The position numbers and the translations under genes were made by a program. The notes under the pieces are model-generated. The model saw nothing but the letters and a program-made list of their open reading frames with translations. It was not told the DNA's origin and ran no database searches. From the NCBI GenBank assembly GCA_013002205.1, contig JABDKN010000132.1:1-41699 (forward strand): a stretch of 41,699 nucleotides of DNA. Direction: 5' to 3'. Source of the stretch: Granulosicoccus sp. GTDB taxonomy: Bacteria; Pseudomonadota; Gammaproteobacteria; Granulosicoccales; Granulosicoccaceae. The stretch's first letter is position 1, and each line of letters begins with the position of its first letter. This document shows positions 15,200 to 29,373 of the stretch, one piece after another.

Positions 15200-16003
15200 T
15201 CAGCGGCGATGATAGACATCGTATCGCGTATTCGGTGACTCGAGGCAGGTGCGCTGTCCCCGCCACTGCTCCGCGCCCGGCAGAGGTTCGGCACCGCGTG
15301 GTCGCTTGACCACCACACGACTGACTGCACATTGCAGCGCCGCAGGCAGGAGTTGTCCGTCATCGCAGGACCCGGAAGGTCCGAGCAGGGCGTGCAGAAA
15401 CTGCATACCCTTACGTGAATCTGCCTTTTTCCGCTTACGTTCCGGGTACATCGGGTCCAGGTAGATGGCATGTCCATCGAGTTCTGGCAGCAATTTTTCG
15501 GCCAGCCCGTGCAGCAGCACGATGCGCCTGGCGATATCGCCCGCTTCACCGTGTCCGGCCGCTCTGTGCAGAGCGTTGGCCAGCAGGGCATGTACGATCG
15601 GATGTTGTTCGATGACAGTGACCCTGCCCCCGAGAGAGGCCAGTGCCCATGCATCCTGACCCAGTCCGCCGGTGGCATCTATGACCGCAGGTAACTCGCC
15701 GAACTGTCTGCGATAGGCATTCAGGCCCAGTGCCCGGGCCAGTGTCCGGATGCCCTTGCCAGACTCAGCCGCGCGGTGGCGTGCCTTGCCCGCGTTGAAA
15801 TCGATTGTCAGCTTTACACCATCGGGCCTGGTCAGCGCCAGTTCCTCACCATGGGCAGTCAGTACCCAGGCGGCCTGCGGAATTCGGCTGCACAGTGGCA
15901 AGTCCAGGGAATCAAGCAGTTCGCTGCACGCAGGTGAAATCCCGCCCGTGTTGTTGCCAGTGTCGCGATAGGCGACGATGTCCGGGGCACTCCAGCAGGT
16001 CAC
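15200..16003 (-). CDS. rsmJ: 16S rRNA (guanine-1516-N2)-methyltransferase RsmJ
   Basis: This SAM-dependent enzyme methylates G1516 of 16S rRNA. The 267-residue protein has the SAM motif DATGGLGQDAWALASLG (about 110-126), the catalytic-loop motif YLDPMYPERKRKK (about 181-193) and the C-terminal VVVKRPRGAEPL, all as in the YhiQ family. GTG 16003 is the likely start, though the ribosome-binding site is weak and the first 25 residues are poorly conserved, so a later start is possible. Its 5' end is only 44 bp from the divergent Rieske-like gene. Confidence 0.92.
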   Translation of the reverse strand: MTCWSAPDIVAYRDTGNNTGGISPACSELLDSLDLPLCSRIPQAAWVLTAHGEELALTRPDGVKLTIDFNAGKARHRAAESGKGIRTLARALGLNAYRRQFGELPAVIDATGGLGQDAWALASLGGRVTVIEQHPIVHALLANALHRAAGHGEAGDIARRIVLLHGLAEKLLPELDGHAIYLDPMYPERKRKKADSRKGMQFLHALLGPSGSCDDGQLLPAALQCAVSRVVVKRPRGAEPLPGAEQWRGQRTCLESPNTRYDVYHRR

Positions 16004-16047: not shown

Positions 16048-16626
16048 GTGAGAGACATCAGCCCTGAAGATCGACAGCGCCGACTCCGACTGCGCGTCGC
16101 TGCCAAACTGATGCTGTTCATGGCGGTGGCAACGGCTGCCTATGTTCTGCTGTCGTCCATTTCCGGCAGACAGGATCAGGCGTCCAGGTTGCCGACTCTG
16201 CGGGTTCCTGTAGGCGATTTGCAGCCCGGTCAGGTCAACATTGTCGAGTGGGAAGGCCGCCCGGTGATCTTCTACAGGCGCAGCGCCGGTGACCTGGCAA
16301 CACTGCGCAGGGACGATGCGCGCCTGCTCGATCCCGTCTCTGACAGCTCGGAACAGCCTGACTTCTTCGACCGCATCGAACGATCGGCTACGCCAGAGCT
16401 TTTCGTAGCCATTGCGCTGGGTACCGATCTGGGTTGCCCGGTTGCCTACCTGCCCGCCGCCGATACCGCGTTTCAGGGCAAGCCCTGGTCCGGTGGTTTT
16501 GTCGACACCTGTCGTCAGGCGCGCTACGATCTGGCGGGGCGTGTCTATCGTCACCAGTATGCCGACCGGAACCTGCTGGTTCCGCCCTATTCTGTGGATG
16601 AAGACACCGTGACTCTGGGGCGCTGA
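16048..16626 (+). CDS. Membrane-anchored Rieske-fold protein lacking all [2Fe-2S] ligands
   Basis: This is a 192-residue protein from GTG 16048. A basic N-terminus (RQRRLRLR) and one hydrophobic helix (about 22-38) precede a domain that follows the cytochrome bc1 Rieske subunit PetA: VEWEGRPVIFYRRS (67-79), LLDP (93-96), then the cluster loops. Box 1, normally CTHLGC, reads GTDLGC (125-130). Box 2, normally CPCHGS, reads DTCRQA (153-158) inside WSGGF...RYDLAGRVY, and LLVPPYSV follows. Thus Cys-Gly, His-Asp, Cys-Asp and His-Arg replace all four ligands, while the two disulphide cysteines (130 and 155) are kept. It cannot hold a normal cluster and is more likely structural or regulatory than redox-active. 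No cytochrome b or c1 gene is nearby. The start lacks a good ribosome-binding site. Confidence 0.8.
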   Translation: MRDISPEDRQRRLRLRVAAKLMLFMAVATAAYVLLSSISGRQDQASRLPTLRVPVGDLQPGQVNIVEWEGRPVIFYRRSAGDLATLRRDDARLLDPVSDSSEQPDFFDRIERSATPELFVAIALGTDLGCPVAYLPAADTAFQGKPWSGGFVDTCRQARYDLAGRVYRHQYADRNLLVPPYSVDEDTVTLGR

Positions 16627-21120: not shown

Positions 21121-22032
21121 ATGAGAGATACTGATACCCGACAGAAATTTCTGGTGGAATCGTGTGATGTACGGGGTCATCACGTGCAGTTGGATCACAC
21201 CTGGCAGGAAGCGGTGGCACGAACCCGGTATCCACCAATGATCCGGCAGATACTGGGTGAGGCGTTTGCCGCCACCGCCCTGCTGGCCAGTACCATCAAG
21301 TTCGACGGCAAGATGACCTTGCAACTGCGCGGCGACGGACCGGTCTACCTGCTGGTCGTCCAGGTTACTGCTGATGGCGATATGCGTGGCCTTGCCCGCT
21401 GGAATGCAGAACCGGAGGATGTTTCACTGAATGGCCTGTTCGGCAGCAATGCTCGCATGAGTATCACGGTCGAAGCTAACCGTCACCATGCGCCCTATCA
21501 GGGAATCGTACCGCTGGAAGGCAGCAGCCTTGCACAGTCGCTGCAGGCGTATTTCAGGACCAGTGAGCAGTTGCCCACACAGTTGTTTCTGGCTGTCAGT
21601 GACGACACGGCCGCCGGTGTGCTGGTCCAGAAATTACCGGCCGATCTACGCCAGGCCAATGATTCCGATGGCTGGCAGAGAGCCACGGTACTGTGCGATA
21701 CGCTCAGCGACGAGGAGTTGTGCCTGCAGGACACTTCCACCTTGCTGCATCGCCTCTTCCACGACGAACGCGTGCGGGTGTTCGAGGCAGAGCCCGTGCG
21801 TTTTCATTGCAGCTGTTCGCGGGAGCGCACCGACGGCATGCTGATCGGACTCGGCAGCAGTGAGGTCGCAGACATCGTGCAGGAGCAGGGCAGGGTGGAG
21901 ATCACCTGCGAATTCTGTGACCGTCAGTACATTTACGACGCGGTGGATGTTGCTGCCCTGTTCAAGGGTTTGCCTACCGGTGTCGTGGTACCTGCCGCCG
22001 GTGATGATGACACCGACATGACGCGTCACTGA
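21121..22032 (+). CDS. hslO: Redox-regulated chaperone Hsp33 (HslO)
   Basis: Hsp33 is a holdase activated when oxidation releases zinc from its C-terminal switch. The protein (303 residues from ATG 21121) has the N-terminal core with GEAFAATALLASTIKFDGKM and the Zn motif CSC...CEFC (HCSCSRER about 231-238, then CEFC about 267-270). GGAG lies 9 nt before ATG 21121 but only 3 nt before ATG 21115, so I prefer the former. Its 3' end overlaps the opposite-strand kinase gene by 7 nt. Confidence 0.94.
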   Translation: MRDTDTRQKFLVESCDVRGHHVQLDHTWQEAVARTRYPPMIRQILGEAFAATALLASTIKFDGKMTLQLRGDGPVYLLVVQVTADGDMRGLARWNAEPEDVSLNGLFGSNARMSITVEANRHHAPYQGIVPLEGSSLAQSLQAYFRTSEQLPTQLFLAVSDDTAAGVLVQKLPADLRQANDSDGWQRATVLCDTLSDEELCLQDTSTLLHRLFHDERVRVFEAEPVRFHCSCSRERTDGMLIGLGSSEVADIVQEQGRVEITCEFCDRQYIYDAVDVAALFKGLPTGVVVPAAGDDDTDMTRH

Positions 22033-25000
22033 GGCCCGATCGGTCGCGGTTGCTGCAGGAAATCACGCAGGTGCTGAATCTCCACCGGCTTGGTCAGGTG
22101 GTGATCGAAAACCGCCTGCTTCTGCTCGTCCAGTGCATTGCGGCCTGTCAGCGCAATGAACTGGCTGGCCGCCAGGGCCGGCATTGCGCGCATGCGGGTC
22201 ACCAGGGCGTAGCCGTCTTCATCGGGTAAGCCGATATCACTCAGGACCACGCTCGGAACGATACTGTCCAGCTGTGCCATGGCCTGGCTGGCAGTATGCG
22301 CCACGTGTACCGCATGGCCTGAGCGCTCCAGCAGGCGTGCCAGGATCCGCGCAGATTCTTCATGGTCCTCCACCAGCAGAATGCAATGAGATAGTGACTC
22401 GGCAGGCTTCTGGTTCGCCTGATTGATGTGGCGGTGCAGGCTTTCGAGCAGGAGTTGGCGATCGACAGGCTTCGTCAGGTAATCACTGCACCCCGCGGCC
22501 AGGCATTTATCGCGCTCTCCTTTCATGGCGTTGGCCGTCAGGGCGATGATCGGTTTGTTGAAACCGCGCTCGCGTAGTGTACTTGCCGCGTCGTACCCGT
22601 TGATCTCCGGCATCTGCATGTCCAGTACGATTGCCCGGTAGCCGGTACCCAGTGCTTCTGCACGCTTTACCTTTTTCAACGCCTGCGCCGCGCTGGGCGC
22701 CGTGTCGACCTCGGCGCCGGCATCTTCGAGAATATGCTGTACCACGTGCAGCACGTCGCGTCGATCGTCGACTGCCAGCAGTCGGTAGGGCAGGCGCAGC
22801 GCCCTAACCGGTTCGCTGGATTCACTGTCACCAGGTCTGACGGGTGTGGCCAGTTCAACGTCATGCGCTGGGCCGGTCGGTAGTTGCAGGGTCACTGTAC
22901 TGCCCACACCCGGTGTACTTTCCAGGTGAATGGAACCGCCCAGGCTGGCTGCCAGCCGCTGGCTGATGGCAAGTCCGAGTCCACTGCCACCGAAGCGGCG
23001 GGATATCGAAGAATCGGCCTGGGTAAAGGAGCCGAAGACCTCGGCTTGCTGCTTGCTCGTCATACCGATACCGGTATCGATGACCTGAAAGAGCATGATG
23101 CCGGCATCCTGCCGTGACTGGTATTCGATACGCAGTGTCACACTGCCTTTTTCAGTGAATTTGACGGCATTACCGGTGAGATTGATCAGGATCTGTCGCA
23201 GGCGCGTGGGGTCGGTTTCCATCGTAACCGGTAGTCGTCCGGCGTAATCCACGGCCAGTGCCAGTTGCTTGCAATCTGCCTGCAACTGCATCGTGTCCAG
23301 CGTCTGCTCGATGATGGCCACCGGCGATACCCTTGCCAGTTCCAGTTCCAGCTTTCCCGATTCGATTCTGGACAGATCGAGGATATCATCCAGCAATCCG
23401 ATCAGGAATTGCCCGTTTCGCTTGATCGTCTTGACACTCTGCAGATTGTCCGGGTCGTTCAGATGGGCATCGAGCAGATCGGCATAGCCGAGAATGGCGG
23501 TCATCGGTGTGCGAATTTCGTGGCTCATATTGGCCAGAAACTCACTTTTCAGTCGATTGGCTTTTTCCGCCTGTTCCTGAGCCTCTTCAGCCTGCTGTTT
23601 CAGTGCCTTGAGCTTCTCTTCGGCTTGTCGTCTCTGGGTGACTTCTTCGGCGACGACGTTTATCCCCACCACCCTGTCATTCACATCCCTCATCGGTATC
23701 CAGCTTTGGATCCAGTGCCGCTCGACTCCCGGTTGAGCCGGTGTCGTACCACTGATGGGAATTTCCAGTACGGCCTCGCCGGTGTGCAGGATCCTGCGTA
23801 GTCTGGGCAATGCCTCTTTGGCAATGTCCGGCAGTAGCTCCTCGAGACTGCGACCTATGTGCTCGCTGGCCGACAGTCCATTGAATGCGGCCAGCTGCTC
23901 ATTGACCCGGGTAAATTTCAGATTACTGTCCAGCACGCACAACCCGACCGGCGCGGTGTGGTAGATATCCTCGATCTCCTGGAGCAGGGCACGTGTCTTC
24001 ATCTCCGCCATCTCCAGTGCCAGTTCCATCTGGCGCCTGTGGGTAACATCGATCGCCGAGGGAATCAGGTGCGTAACCGTGCCATCGGTACTGCACATCG
24101 GCACGATCTGGAAATCGATGGTGGCCCTGGTATTGCCCTCCAGCATGATGTCCACATCAAAGCGTGAATGTTCACCCGCGGCTGCGCGCTCTATGGCAGC
24201 ATCCAGCAGTGCCTGTGAGTCAGGAAGCTGTGACCACCAATAGGACTCTCTGAAGGGTTTCCCCAGGACTTCGGAAGACTCGATACCTGCTGCGGCCAGG
24301 GCGGATTCGTTGGCCTGCAACAGAATACCGTCGGTGGTGCACACGCCCACGAACGTGCGCAGGCTGTCGATGACCTGCCGGGTGAACTGTTCGGCGGACT
24401 TGGTTTCGGTGATGTCGGTGAAGGTCACCACCATGCCACCGGTGGACGGTATGGAACTGACATAGGGCAGCACCCGTCGCAGATACCAGCGCCCGTCCCG
24501 CGTGTGAATCTGGGCTTCCTCGCCCTGATCACCCAGGGTTGCCGTCAGTGGCAGCTCAGGCATGTCCACCGCATGATGCGCAACCTGGCTGATACAGCGG
24601 CCCATGTCGCGCCTGGTGAGATAGTAGATACGCTGAATGGCAGGTGTAAAGCGTTGAATGCGATGCGCATCATCCAGGAAGAGAGTTGCCAGCTGGCCAC
24701 TGTCGAGCAGGTTTTCCAGATGATCATTTGCCTGCCTGAGCGCCAGCTGACTGGTTTCATTGGATTCCCTGGCCAGTTCCAGCTCGTTATAGGCGCGTTG
24801 CAGTTCCAGGTTTCTGGCCATCAACTCCTGATTGGAGGATTCGAGCTTTTCGTTGGCTGTCTCCAGGTCCGTCAGGTTACGCAGCAGATCAGCCTGCGTC
24901 GTGCTCAGCTCATGCTTAAGCGTATCAATCCACGGCTGGGCGTGCTGCGACCAGGCAGGTTCAGCATCTTTTGAGAGCCTGCTCAATATCGTCCCCAGTT

Positions 25001-25568
25001 TACGGATATCCGCAATCCGGCAGTCATCTGCCGCGGCCTTGCCTGGCAGGCGGTGCCGGATGAAGCCATCACCCTCGGCGACCTGCGTGAATGTGCGTCC
25101 GCTGGCATCGCGTATCGATTGCAGCCCGGTACTGCCATGCGCAGTGGCGCCGGAGAACAGAATTCCCACCGCGCGGTGACCCTGGTCCACGGCCAGAGTG
25201 TGAAACAGTCGGTCGATCGGCGACTGGAGCGTGTCCTTATCCCCTGCCTGTGAATGCGCAAGCGCCTGGCGATGAAACCGGCCGTCCCTGATCGTGACTC
25301 GAGCATCTGCATCCAGTATATGGATACATTGCGGGCCGAATATTGCGCCATCCTCGACGGCTCGAACAGCCATGGCGGAGTCCTGAGCGATCGCGTCGAT
25401 CAGTTGTTCGCAGTCGAGGTTGGCCGCCAGCGGCATGATCAGCAGCGAAAGCTGCGCGGTATCGTGCAGCCTGCCCAGCAACTCGCAGAGATCCGCGGTA
25501 TCACCGGCATTGCAACCGATGGCCACGTAGATAGATGCCTTTGACGATGCCGAGGAGTTCCGGACCAT
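22026..25568 (-). CDS. Hybrid histidine kinase: degenerate CheB - coiled coil - PAS x3 - HisKA - HATPase - REC x2
   Basis: A 1180-residue cytoplasmic sensor with no transmembrane segment. Order: CheB-like domain (about 11-195), coiled coil (225-285), three PAS domains (about 283-390, 395-512, 530-648), a second coiled coil, HisKA (His683 in MSHEIRTP), HATPase (N box NLTGNAVKF, G1 DTGIGM, G2 GGSGLGLA), REC1 (Asp983, Lys1033) and REC2 (Asp1111, Lys1160). The CheB domain has lost its triad: Ser becomes Asn20 in AIGCNAG, His becomes Ile44, and Asp becomes His144 in SGATAHG. The CheR domain that normally follows in such CheB/CheR/PAS proteins is absent, though its adjoining coiled coil and PAS remain. 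ATG 25568 follows GGAAA; TTG 25613 is an alternative. No partner regulator is adjacent, and the target is unknown. Confidence 0.92.
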   Translation of the reverse strand: MVRNSSASSKASIYVAIGCNAGDTADLCELLGRLHDTAQLSLLIMPLAANLDCEQLIDAIAQDSAMAVRAVEDGAIFGPQCIHILDADARVTIRDGRFHRQALAHSQAGDKDTLQSPIDRLFHTLAVDQGHRAVGILFSGATAHGSTGLQSIRDASGRTFTQVAEGDGFIRHRLPGKAAADDCRIADIRKLGTILSRLSKDAEPAWSQHAQPWIDTLKHELSTTQADLLRNLTDLETANEKLESSNQELMARNLELQRAYNELELARESNETSQLALRQANDHLENLLDSGQLATLFLDDAHRIQRFTPAIQRIYYLTRRDMGRCISQVAHHAVDMPELPLTATLGDQGEEAQIHTRDGRWYLRRVLPYVSSIPSTGGMVVTFTDITETKSAEQFTRQVIDSLRTFVGVCTTDGILLQANESALAAAGIESSEVLGKPFRESYWWSQLPDSQALLDAAIERAAAGEHSRFDVDIMLEGNTRATIDFQIVPMCSTDGTVTHLIPSAIDVTHRRQMELALEMAEMKTRALLQEIEDIYHTAPVGLCVLDSNLKFTRVNEQLAAFNGLSASEHIGRSLEELLPDIAKEALPRLRRILHTGEAVLEIPISGTTPAQPGVERHWIQSWIPMRDVNDRVVGINVVAEEVTQRRQAEEKLKALKQQAEEAQEQAEKANRLKSEFLANMSHEIRTPMTAILGYADLLDAHLNDPDNLQSVKTIKRNGQFLIGLLDDILDLSRIESGKLELELARVSPVAIIEQTLDTMQLQADCKQLALAVDYAGRLPVTMETDPTRLRQILINLTGNAVKFTEKGSVTLRIEYQSRQDAGIMLFQVIDTGIGMTSKQQAEVFGSFTQADSSISRRFGGSGLGLAISQRLAASLGGSIHLESTPGVGSTVTLQLPTGPAHDVELATPVRPGDSESSEPVRALRLPYRLLAVDDRRDVLHVVQHILEDAGAEVDTAPSAAQALKKVKRAEALGTGYRAIVLDMQMPEINGYDAASTLRERGFNKPIIALTANAMKGERDKCLAAGCSDYLTKPVDRQLLLESLHRHINQANQKPAESLSHCILLVEDHEESARILARLLERSGHAVHVAHTASQAMAQLDSIVPSVVLSDIGLPDEDGYALVTRMRAMPALAASQFIALTGRNALDEQKQAVFDHHLTKPVEIQHLRDFLQQPRPIGPQ

Positions 25569-25613
25569 TAGTTTTCCAGCGGGGCGGGTTTTCAACGCTG
25601 CCAGGGTTGGCAA

Positions 25614-26520: not shown

Positions 26521-29373
26521 ATGAATTTTCTCGCGCATTCCCTGTTGGGCTTTGACGATGACGAACTGATCGCCGGCCAGATCTGCGGGGATTTCGTCCG
26601 CGGCAGCACCCTGTCACATTTTCCGGTGGGTCTGGAGACGGGCATACGCCTGCACCGTCATCTGGATGCCTATACCGATTCGCATCCTGGTCTGGTAGCG
26701 GCACGCGCTGAGCTGGAAGGTGTCTCACAACGCTTTGCCGGGATCATCATCGATGTGCTGTTCGACCATTTTCTGGCGCAGCACTGGTCAAGGTTCAGCG
26801 CACAGTCGCTGCCTGCGCATGCCAGCACGGTGCATGCAGCGCTGGATATTCACCGCCGATTCCTGCCCGACCTTCTCCAGCGTTTCATGCCGGTATTCTC
26901 CCGGGAACGCATACTGGAGCGTAATACCGAACTGCCGGCCATCGAACAGACGCTTGCTCGCCTGTCACGGCGCTCACCGCGGTTTGCACCGCTGGCCATC
27001 GACGGAGCACACCTGCTGACCTTGCGCGAGCAATTGCAGGAACCCTTCGAGTCGTTCTATCCTGATTTGCTGGGGGCCGCCAGAGCCTACCTGGACTTGC
27101 GGGAGCAATCGCATCCACAACAGGCCGAGCAACAGAAACGCGCCAGCGCGCCGCCACAGAAAAGAAAGAAGAAACGTAAAGCTTCAGGAGCAAGCAATGT
27201 GAATGACAGCAAAGCCAGCCAGCCAGCTACGCTGCCTGAGCAGTGGACCCGGAGTCAGTATTCCTCACTGGCACTGGCAAACCGGGAACTGAGCTTCCTG
27301 GCATTTGACGAGCGCGTGCTGGCCCTGGCCAGCGACGCCAATGTACCGCTTCTCGAACGGTTACGCTTTCTGTGCATTTCCAGCAGCAACCTGGATGAAT
27401 TTTTCGAGATTCGTGTGGCTGGCCTGAAACAGAAGATCCTTGGTGGCATCGAAGGAGCGGGCATCGACGGCATGTCGCCTCTGCAGGAAATGGATGTCAT
27501 CAATCGCGAGGCCCATGCGCTGGTGGAAAAACAGTACCAGCTACTCAACGAGGTACTCATTCCCGAACTTGCCGAACACGACATCCGCTTCTTCACGCGC
27601 AAGAGCTGGTCGAGTGAGATCAGCACCTGGGTGAAGGATTTTTTCACCAACGAAATCGCGCCGGTGCTGAGCCCCCTGGGACTGGATCCGGCACACCCGT
27701 TTCCGCGCCTGACCAACAAAAGCCTGAATTTCATCATCGATCTGCGCGGGGTGGACGCCTTCGGCCGTGATTCGGGCTTTGCACTGGTGCGGGCGCCGCG
27801 TTCTTTGCCGCGCGTCATTCGCGTACCATCCGAAATCTGCGGGGTGCGGGATGGATTCGTCTTCCTGTCATCCATCGTGCATTCGCAGATCGGTTCGCTG
27901 TTCAATGGCATGAACCCGGTCGGCGTGTACCAGTTCAAGGCCACGCGCAACAGTGACCTGTATGTCTCCGAGGAGGAAGTAGCCAATCTCAGGCGGGCGC
28001 TGGAGAGTGAGCTGGTGCAACGCAACTTCGGCCAGGCGGTGCGCCTGGAAGTGGCTGCAAACTGCCCGAACCGAATCGTCCGCTACCTGCAGCGGCAGTT
28101 CCAGCTTGAGCAATACGACGTCTACCGGGTGGATGGACCGGTGAATCTGAACCGCCTGCTGGCCATCCCCGACGAGATAGACCGGCCGGATCTGAAGTAT
28201 CCCTCCTTCACACCGCATGTCGCGCCGGCGTTCCAGTCGGGCATGAGCATCTTCGAGAACATCACGCAACGTTCACCGATATTGTTCCATCATCCCTATG
28301 AGTCATATGTGCCGGTCATCGACCTGGTGCGCCAGGCGGCTGCAGATCCTGATGTGCTGGCAATCAAGCAGACCCTGTACAGGACAGGACATGAATCGGT
28401 TTTCGTAAGCTCCCTGATGGAAGCCTCCCGGCGCGGCAAGGATGTAACCGTGGTCATCGAGCTGCGAGCCCGGTTCGACGAGGCGGCCAATATCGAACTG
28501 GCTACCCGGCTGCAGGAAGCGGGCATTCAGGTGGTTTACGGTGTGGTGGGATTCAAGACCCATGCGAAGATGTTGCTGGTCGTACGGCGGGAAAAGAAAA
28601 AACTCGTCAAGTACGTGCATGTCGGTACCGGCAACTACCACGCAACCACGGCCAGGGCCTATACCGACATCAGCATGCTCACCAACAGCAAGGCCATCAC
28701 CGAAGACGTACACCGCGTTTTCACGCAGCTGACCGGACTGGGCCAGACACTCAATCTTAAACAGCTGGTGCAGGCGCCGTTCACTCTGCACACCTTCATT
28801 GTCGACCGCATTGCCCGTGAAACCAAAGTGGCCGCCAAGGGTGGTAAGGGTCATGTCATTGCGCGTATGAATTCACTGGTGGATCCGGGCGTCATCCAGG
28901 CATTGTATGAAGCTTCGCAGGCGGGCGTTAAGGTTGAGCTGGTGGTGCGTGGTATCTGCATGCTCAAGGCACAGGTGCCGGGATTATCCGAGAACATTCG
29001 CGTCATCTCCGTACTGGGTCGATTCCTGGAGCACTCGCGCGTTTTCTGGTTCCTCAATGAAGGCAAGGAGCAGTTGTACATCAGCAGTGCGGACTGGATG
29101 CCCCGCAATTTTTTCAATCGGGTAGAGATCGCGGTACCGCTGGATGGCAATGCACTGGATCGGGTCAAGGAAGAGTGTCTCGAGGTGTACCTGAAAGACA
29201 ATGTATTCGCCTGGGAACAACAGGCTGATGGCACATATCGACGACTCAAACCCGGCTCGGACGGCACCAGGGAGGGTACAGCAGACAAGCAAGCGAACAA
29301 GGTGTCCGAAGAACCCTTCTGTGCGCAGCAGTTCCTGATCGACCGCTACGGTGGCAGTCGCCTGGATCATTAG
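26521..29373 (+). CDS. ppk: AcpH-type phosphodiesterase fused in frame to polyphosphate kinase Ppk1
   Basis: One 950-codon frame holds two proteins. Residues 1 to about 190 are an AcpH/DUF479 domain, which removes phosphopantetheine from acyl carrier protein (MNFLAHSLLG, GDFVRG, LHRHLDAYTDSHPG, DVLFDHFLAQHWS). Residues 191-226 form a Lys/Arg-rich linker (QKRKKKRK). From 227 on is a complete Ppk1, which makes polyphosphate from ATP: LANRELSFLAFDERVL at the N-domain, catalytic His681 in KTHAKMLLV, second conserved His838 in EHSR, and SSADWMPRN. AGGAG at 27186-27190 stands 8 nt before in-frame GTG 27199, so a separate 724-residue Ppk1 could also be made. It faces ppx. Confidence 0.9.
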   Translation: MNFLAHSLLGFDDDELIAGQICGDFVRGSTLSHFPVGLETGIRLHRHLDAYTDSHPGLVAARAELEGVSQRFAGIIIDVLFDHFLAQHWSRFSAQSLPAHASTVHAALDIHRRFLPDLLQRFMPVFSRERILERNTELPAIEQTLARLSRRSPRFAPLAIDGAHLLTLREQLQEPFESFYPDLLGAARAYLDLREQSHPQQAEQQKRASAPPQKRKKKRKASGASNVNDSKASQPATLPEQWTRSQYSSLALANRELSFLAFDERVLALASDANVPLLERLRFLCISSSNLDEFFEIRVAGLKQKILGGIEGAGIDGMSPLQEMDVINREAHALVEKQYQLLNEVLIPELAEHDIRFFTRKSWSSEISTWVKDFFTNEIAPVLSPLGLDPAHPFPRLTNKSLNFIIDLRGVDAFGRDSGFALVRAPRSLPRVIRVPSEICGVRDGFVFLSSIVHSQIGSLFNGMNPVGVYQFKATRNSDLYVSEEEVANLRRALESELVQRNFGQAVRLEVAANCPNRIVRYLQRQFQLEQYDVYRVDGPVNLNRLLAIPDEIDRPDLKYPSFTPHVAPAFQSGMSIFENITQRSPILFHHPYESYVPVIDLVRQAAADPDVLAIKQTLYRTGHESVFVSSLMEASRRGKDVTVVIELRARFDEAANIELATRLQEAGIQVVYGVVGFKTHAKMLLVVRREKKKLVKYVHVGTGNYHATTARAYTDISMLTNSKAITEDVHRVFTQLTGLGQTLNLKQLVQAPFTLHTFIVDRIARETKVAAKGGKGHVIARMNSLVDPGVIQALYEASQAGVKVELVVRGICMLKAQVPGLSENIRVISVLGRFLEHSRVFWFLNEGKEQLYISSADWMPRNFFNRVEIAVPLDGNALDRVKEECLEVYLKDNVFAWEQQADGTYRRLKPGSDGTREGTADKQANKVSEEPFCAQQFLIDRYGGSRLDH
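27186..27202 (+). promoter_or_regulatory. Internal Shine-Dalgarno and GTG(A) start for a stand-alone Ppk1
   Basis: AGGAG, 8 nt, then GTG at 27199-27201 in the fused frame. The following base makes GTGA, so a TGA lies in the frame one base over (27200-27202). This is the same GTGA architecture used at pdxA/rsmA and ybeD/lipB. A second stop, TAA at 27177-27179, closes the remaining frame. Confidence 0.6.

Follow-up and report, generated by a model that had tools for sequence, protein, structure and literature searches.

A conserved family of PetA-derived Rieske-fold proteins without cluster ligands in Granulosicoccus and other gammaproteobacterial families

The window analyzed here, the whole stretch of 41,699 nucleotides from Granulosicoccus sp., carries at 16048..16626 on the forward strand a gene with a GTG start whose 192-residue product has a Rieske fold without the cluster ligands; we refer to it as pseudo-Rieske. 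The gene lies outside the petABC operon and adjoins a divergent rsmJ-type methyltransferase gene (15200..16003, reverse strand; Pfam SAM_MT). Within the coding region, the N-terminal helix forming the membrane anchor occupies 16063..16167 (codons 6-40; helix H6-40 in the AlphaFold2 model), with a conserved RxLRVxxKLM motif and no Tat RRxFL motif, followed by a linker that replaces the PetA hinge (16168..16197, codons 41-50; pLDDT ~66). Downstream on the same strand, the two ligand loops read GTDLGC (16420..16437, codons 125-130) and DTCRQA (16504..16521, codons 153-158), and QYADRN, with the prolines lost, stands at the position of the PetA Pro loop (16555..16572, codons 170-175).

When the protein was compared with NCBIfam, the bc1 Rieske equivalog TIGR01416 matched residues 10-188 (E-value 9e-26) with a score of 90.9 bits against a curated cutoff of 97.4, i.e., 6.5 bits short, and a Pfam search with the same protein gave no match; automatic annotation may therefore well miss it. 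Matches in the PDB were to bc1-type Rieske proteins only, headed by Pseudomonas aeruginosa PetA (8smr chain C; E-value 1e-31), and included T. tepidum PetA (7yr9; 3e-25). The AlphaFold2 model, computed with sequences from the window and from fetched relatives, had a mean pLDDT of 94.3 and showed a beta domain and, at the N terminus, a single long helix; used as a Foldseek query, it returned bc1 Rieske structures throughout among the matches listed (top E-value 1.4e-17). Altogether, the profile, PDB, AlphaFold2, and Foldseek results establish a Rieske fold and full-length homology to bc1 Rieske subunits, in agreement with the initial annotation, which had seen bc1-type PetA likeness over the whole domain; the predicted fold is thus not one unrelated to Rieske.

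Alignment of pseudo-Rieske with the PetA proteins of 8smr and 7yr9 was gap-free through the motif region, pairing CTHLGC with GTDLGC and CPCHGS with DTCRQA. The four cluster ligands are all replaced, Cys by G125 and His by D127 in the first loop and Cys by D153 and His by R156 in the second, and the disulfide cysteines C130 and C155 are kept; both observations had been made, with correct residue numbering, in the initial annotation. The two cysteines align with Cys129 and Cys154, the solved Rieske disulfide of T. tepidum PetA (PMC10492824). A first alignment of 21 Granulosicoccus members showed C130 and C155 to be invariant and ligand residues to be present nowhere, and the same held for 76 distinct full-length relatives, none of which had Cys or His at any ligand position (0/76) and all of which kept both cysteines (76/76). 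These data show that no residues that could bind a [2Fe-2S] cluster in the Rieske manner are left in the pseudo-Rieske clade, and this loss of ligands suggests that an Fe-S cluster is absent from the proteins.

The residues now occupying the ligand positions follow a pattern of their own. D153 is nearly invariant among the ligand-less proteins (71/75), and D127 is found in 58/75, being replaced by Gly, Ser, Thr, or Ala in several lineages. At the former His positions 127 and 156, Asp is paired with Arg in 54 proteins and occurs without Arg in 3, 19 proteins have neither, and none has Arg without Asp. By count this pairing is strong (Fisher p 4e-15), with only 3-5 independent changes behind it; a tree-aware sign test gave p 0.25 and, because of so few independent changes, was unable to reach significance. 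The covariation would fit a salt bridge in place of the cluster and is suggestive only. A different Rieske paralogue, encoded at 1471-2088 on the reverse strand of locus L259 (genome G387, family f147), reads CTFDGC and CPCCGS, with both His ligands replaced (by Phe and Cys) and the cysteines kept.

The 76 relatives, all with intact frames, are spread over seven gammaproteobacterial families, Granulosicoccaceae among them. Pseudo-Rieske occurs in 42 of the 48 genomes of the order. The distant family f103 had more than one Rieske match in 38/42 genomes, and the top Rieske matches read there were ligand-less in 30/30 cases; further members were found in families f20, f122, f123, f124, and f147. 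In a maximum-likelihood tree of 126 rows, a single branch with support of 100/100 separated 74 ligand-less proteins from PetA. Two later members, L269 and L273, grouped with the ligand-less proteins in a quick tree in which PetA was represented by just two rows; L269 drew a long-branch warning there. Across 37 pairs of close orthologues, dN/dS ranged from 0.05 to 0.27, evidence of purifying selection. Altogether, the results show that pseudo-Rieske is a single, old, selectively maintained clade derived from PetA that has kept the anchor, the Rieske fold, and the disulfide cysteines, and the simplest reading is that ligand loss arose once. One genome of Granulosicoccaceae, G039, holds two pseudo-Rieske copies (L070, 868-1446; L071, 4421-4999), with a dN/dS of 0.12 between them.

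Adjacency to rsmJ is kept in four families, with the two genes divergent in Granulosicoccaceae and convergent in f103, f123, and f147, and yajQ and a DUF423 gene are often near the pair. This common site points to descent of a single gene; since these neighbors are housekeeping genes, gene order says little about function. In the loci read, petABC or oxidase genes were never beside pseudo-Rieske. The only clean absence is that in the Granulosicoccus genome G008, where the gene is missing at its site, so pseudo-Rieske is not essential everywhere; absence in G002, G040, G043, G055, and G056 was not scored as loss because rsmJ was likewise not found. The number of haem-copper oxidase genes did not explain presence or absence of the gene. 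At three loci outside Granulosicoccaceae, a cyaY-like gene (frataxin-like, read by eye) lies within a few genes of pseudo-Rieske (L210, 5856-6182, reverse; L212, 8516-8836, forward; L213, 6088-6549, reverse), and none was seen near it in the Granulosicoccaceae windows read; this proximity was given no weight in the interpretation.

The window genome also encodes, on a different contig, a canonical PetA with CTHLGC and CPCHGS, whose gene adjoins that of cytochrome b; hence PetA has not been replaced by pseudo-Rieske. An alignment-based scan of genome contigs succeeded where a single-protein scan returned nothing, and the nearest named relatives that it gave were Granulosicoccus genomes. Rieske matches were present in 48/48 genomes of the order and 42/42 genomes of f103, mostly two per genome, and wherever a genome was near complete, PetA always accompanied pseudo-Rieske.

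PetA is targeted to the membrane via the Tat pathway in P. aeruginosa (PMC8432897) and S. oneidensis (PMC3623810). A loose Tat pattern was matched by 94/100 PetA sequences, the six misses including trimmed N-termini, versus 12/75 ligand-less proteins, whose N-termini typically read RLRVxxKLM where PetA has the Tat motif; the RRxFL motif had no match in the window protein, which reads RRLRLR. The anchor, which the initial annotation had described as retained, is therefore kept as a helix, while the Tat twin-arginine motif is mostly gone in the clade. The hinge and anchor sequence is likewise unlike that of PetA, and the prolines of the Pro-Ala-Pro (PxAP) docking loop, present in 98-100% of PetA, are mostly lost. 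In T. tepidum PetA, a hydrophobic patch surrounds the corresponding disulfide (PMC10492824); the pseudo-Rieske tip gains Asp and Arg. As neither the bc1-docking Pro loop nor the hydrophobic tip is conserved, it is doubtful that the protein docks on cytochrome b as PetA does.

Pseudo-Rieske thus shares with PetA and other bc1 Rieske proteins (TIGR01416; 8smr chain C, 7yr9) the fold, length, N-terminal anchor, disulfide pair, and WxGG and YDxAGRV cores, and differs in lacking the four ligands, the Pro loop, the petABC location, and, mostly, the Tat motif. NirD, the small subunit of assimilatory nitrite reductase (Rieske_2 Pfam family), also has a Rieske-like fold without the standard ligands; unlike pseudo-Rieske, it is described as cytoplasmic and without an anchor, and it belongs to a different Rieske branch. 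The strongest precedent is Arabidopsis mFDX-like of the complex I bridge domain, a paralogue of a [2Fe-2S] ferredoxin that has kept the fold; having lost a ligand, it no longer binds a cluster, yet complex I supercomplexes depend on it (PMC10069907). Its gain of a structural role was shown by experiment, whereas the role of pseudo-Rieske is proposed from sequence; it also differs in its ferredoxin fold, its eukaryotic host, and the loss of only one ligand in land plants (PMC10069907).

A ligand-less family conserved across at least seven bacterial families probably has a job other than electron carriage. We tentatively favor, at somewhat below even confidence, a non-redox role comparable to that of mFDX-like, in the structure or assembly of a respiratory complex linked to quinol or cytochrome c, with the bc1 complex as the first candidate partner; the fuller proposal, that this undescribed, widespread, cluster-less family serves bacterial respiratory complexes as a dedicated subunit or assembly factor without redox activity, with an Asp-Arg pair in the place of the cluster, is offered with more reserve. 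The protein would reach the membrane largely without a recognizable Tat signal and adopt an N-in/C-out topology that places its domain on the periplasmic side; the scarcity of such signals fits a protein without a cytoplasmically inserted cofactor. The C130-C155 disulfide would pin the two loops, an Asp/Arg (or small/acidic) arrangement would replace the cluster, and the charged, rebuilt tip would bind a partner protein. The selected non-redox role put forward in the initial annotation agrees with the fold, the ligand loss, the selection, and the retention of PetA, but gene order provides no link to a respiratory complex, and the choice there of an assembly factor, inhibitor, or scaffold is still conjectural, the docking loop and tip chemistry being unlike those of PetA.

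The main rival to a respiratory assembly factor is a scaffold or envelope protein in the periplasm that is unconnected with respiration; the Rieske fold would then be reused as a generic binding domain. A stand-alone gene set beside rsmJ, yajQ, DUF423, slyX, and gatCAB and never in a respiratory operon, together with the rebuilt tip and docking loop, is what such a protein would lead one to expect; the constant company of PetA in near-complete genomes and an ancestry squarely within bc1 Rieske proteins point the other way, neither being decisive, and we consider it rather unlikely. The PetA descent and the retained anchor and domain are also compatible with a competitor or inhibitor that occupies the PetA anchor or docking site on cytochrome b and throttles bc1, but the lost Pro loop, the Asp and Arg in place of a hydrophobic tip, and a hinge and anchor unlike those of PetA make this a poor prospect.

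Because no other potentially reactive residues are invariant, C130 and C155 might have become redox-active or redox-sensing after cluster loss; however, this disulfide has a structural role in all canonical Rieske proteins, which is enough to explain its retention, and a CxxC or thioredoxin-like feature is absent, leaving a thiol-disulfide function improbable, if less so than competition with PetA. Binding of another metal or an unusual cluster via Asp127 and Asp153, to which the frequency of these residues lends some support, is very unlikely, given that R156 adjoins the site, that D127 varies among lineages, and that the zinc site of T. tepidum PetA uses two Cys (PMC10492824), the ligand Cys being absent here. 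If a single genome is taken alone, the lost key residues could suggest a decaying pseudogene or an assembly error; the intact-frame relatives, the strong purifying selection, and the one conserved site contradict this, and we practically dismiss it. A damaged copy confined to this genome was rejected on the ligand-less orthologues and their dN/dS.

That paralogues can lose a cofactor is familiar; what appears undescribed is such a loss within the bc1 Rieske lineage on this scale and with this degree of conservation. A search of an open-access library found no publication on a PetA paralogue lacking the cluster. The cluster is taken as the defining feature of Rieske proteins, and a conserved ligand-less branch would show reuse of the fold as a binding module, one lying in the energy-conserving membrane. 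The clade, with its joint loss of cluster ligands, Tat motif, and Pro loop, also offers a natural experiment on the part that the cluster plays in stability and export, and it cautions annotators that a protein homologous to TIGR01416 need not be a redox protein.

Two other reading frames of the window are worth recording. An unusual-looking fusion of 950 residues at 26521-29373 on the forward strand joins an acyl-carrier-protein phosphodiesterase (residues 1-183) to polyphosphate kinase 1 (residues ~253-911), and a hybrid sensor kinase of 1195 residues at 22026-25613 on the reverse strand combines CheB methylesterase, PAS, HisKA/HATPase, and two receiver domains.
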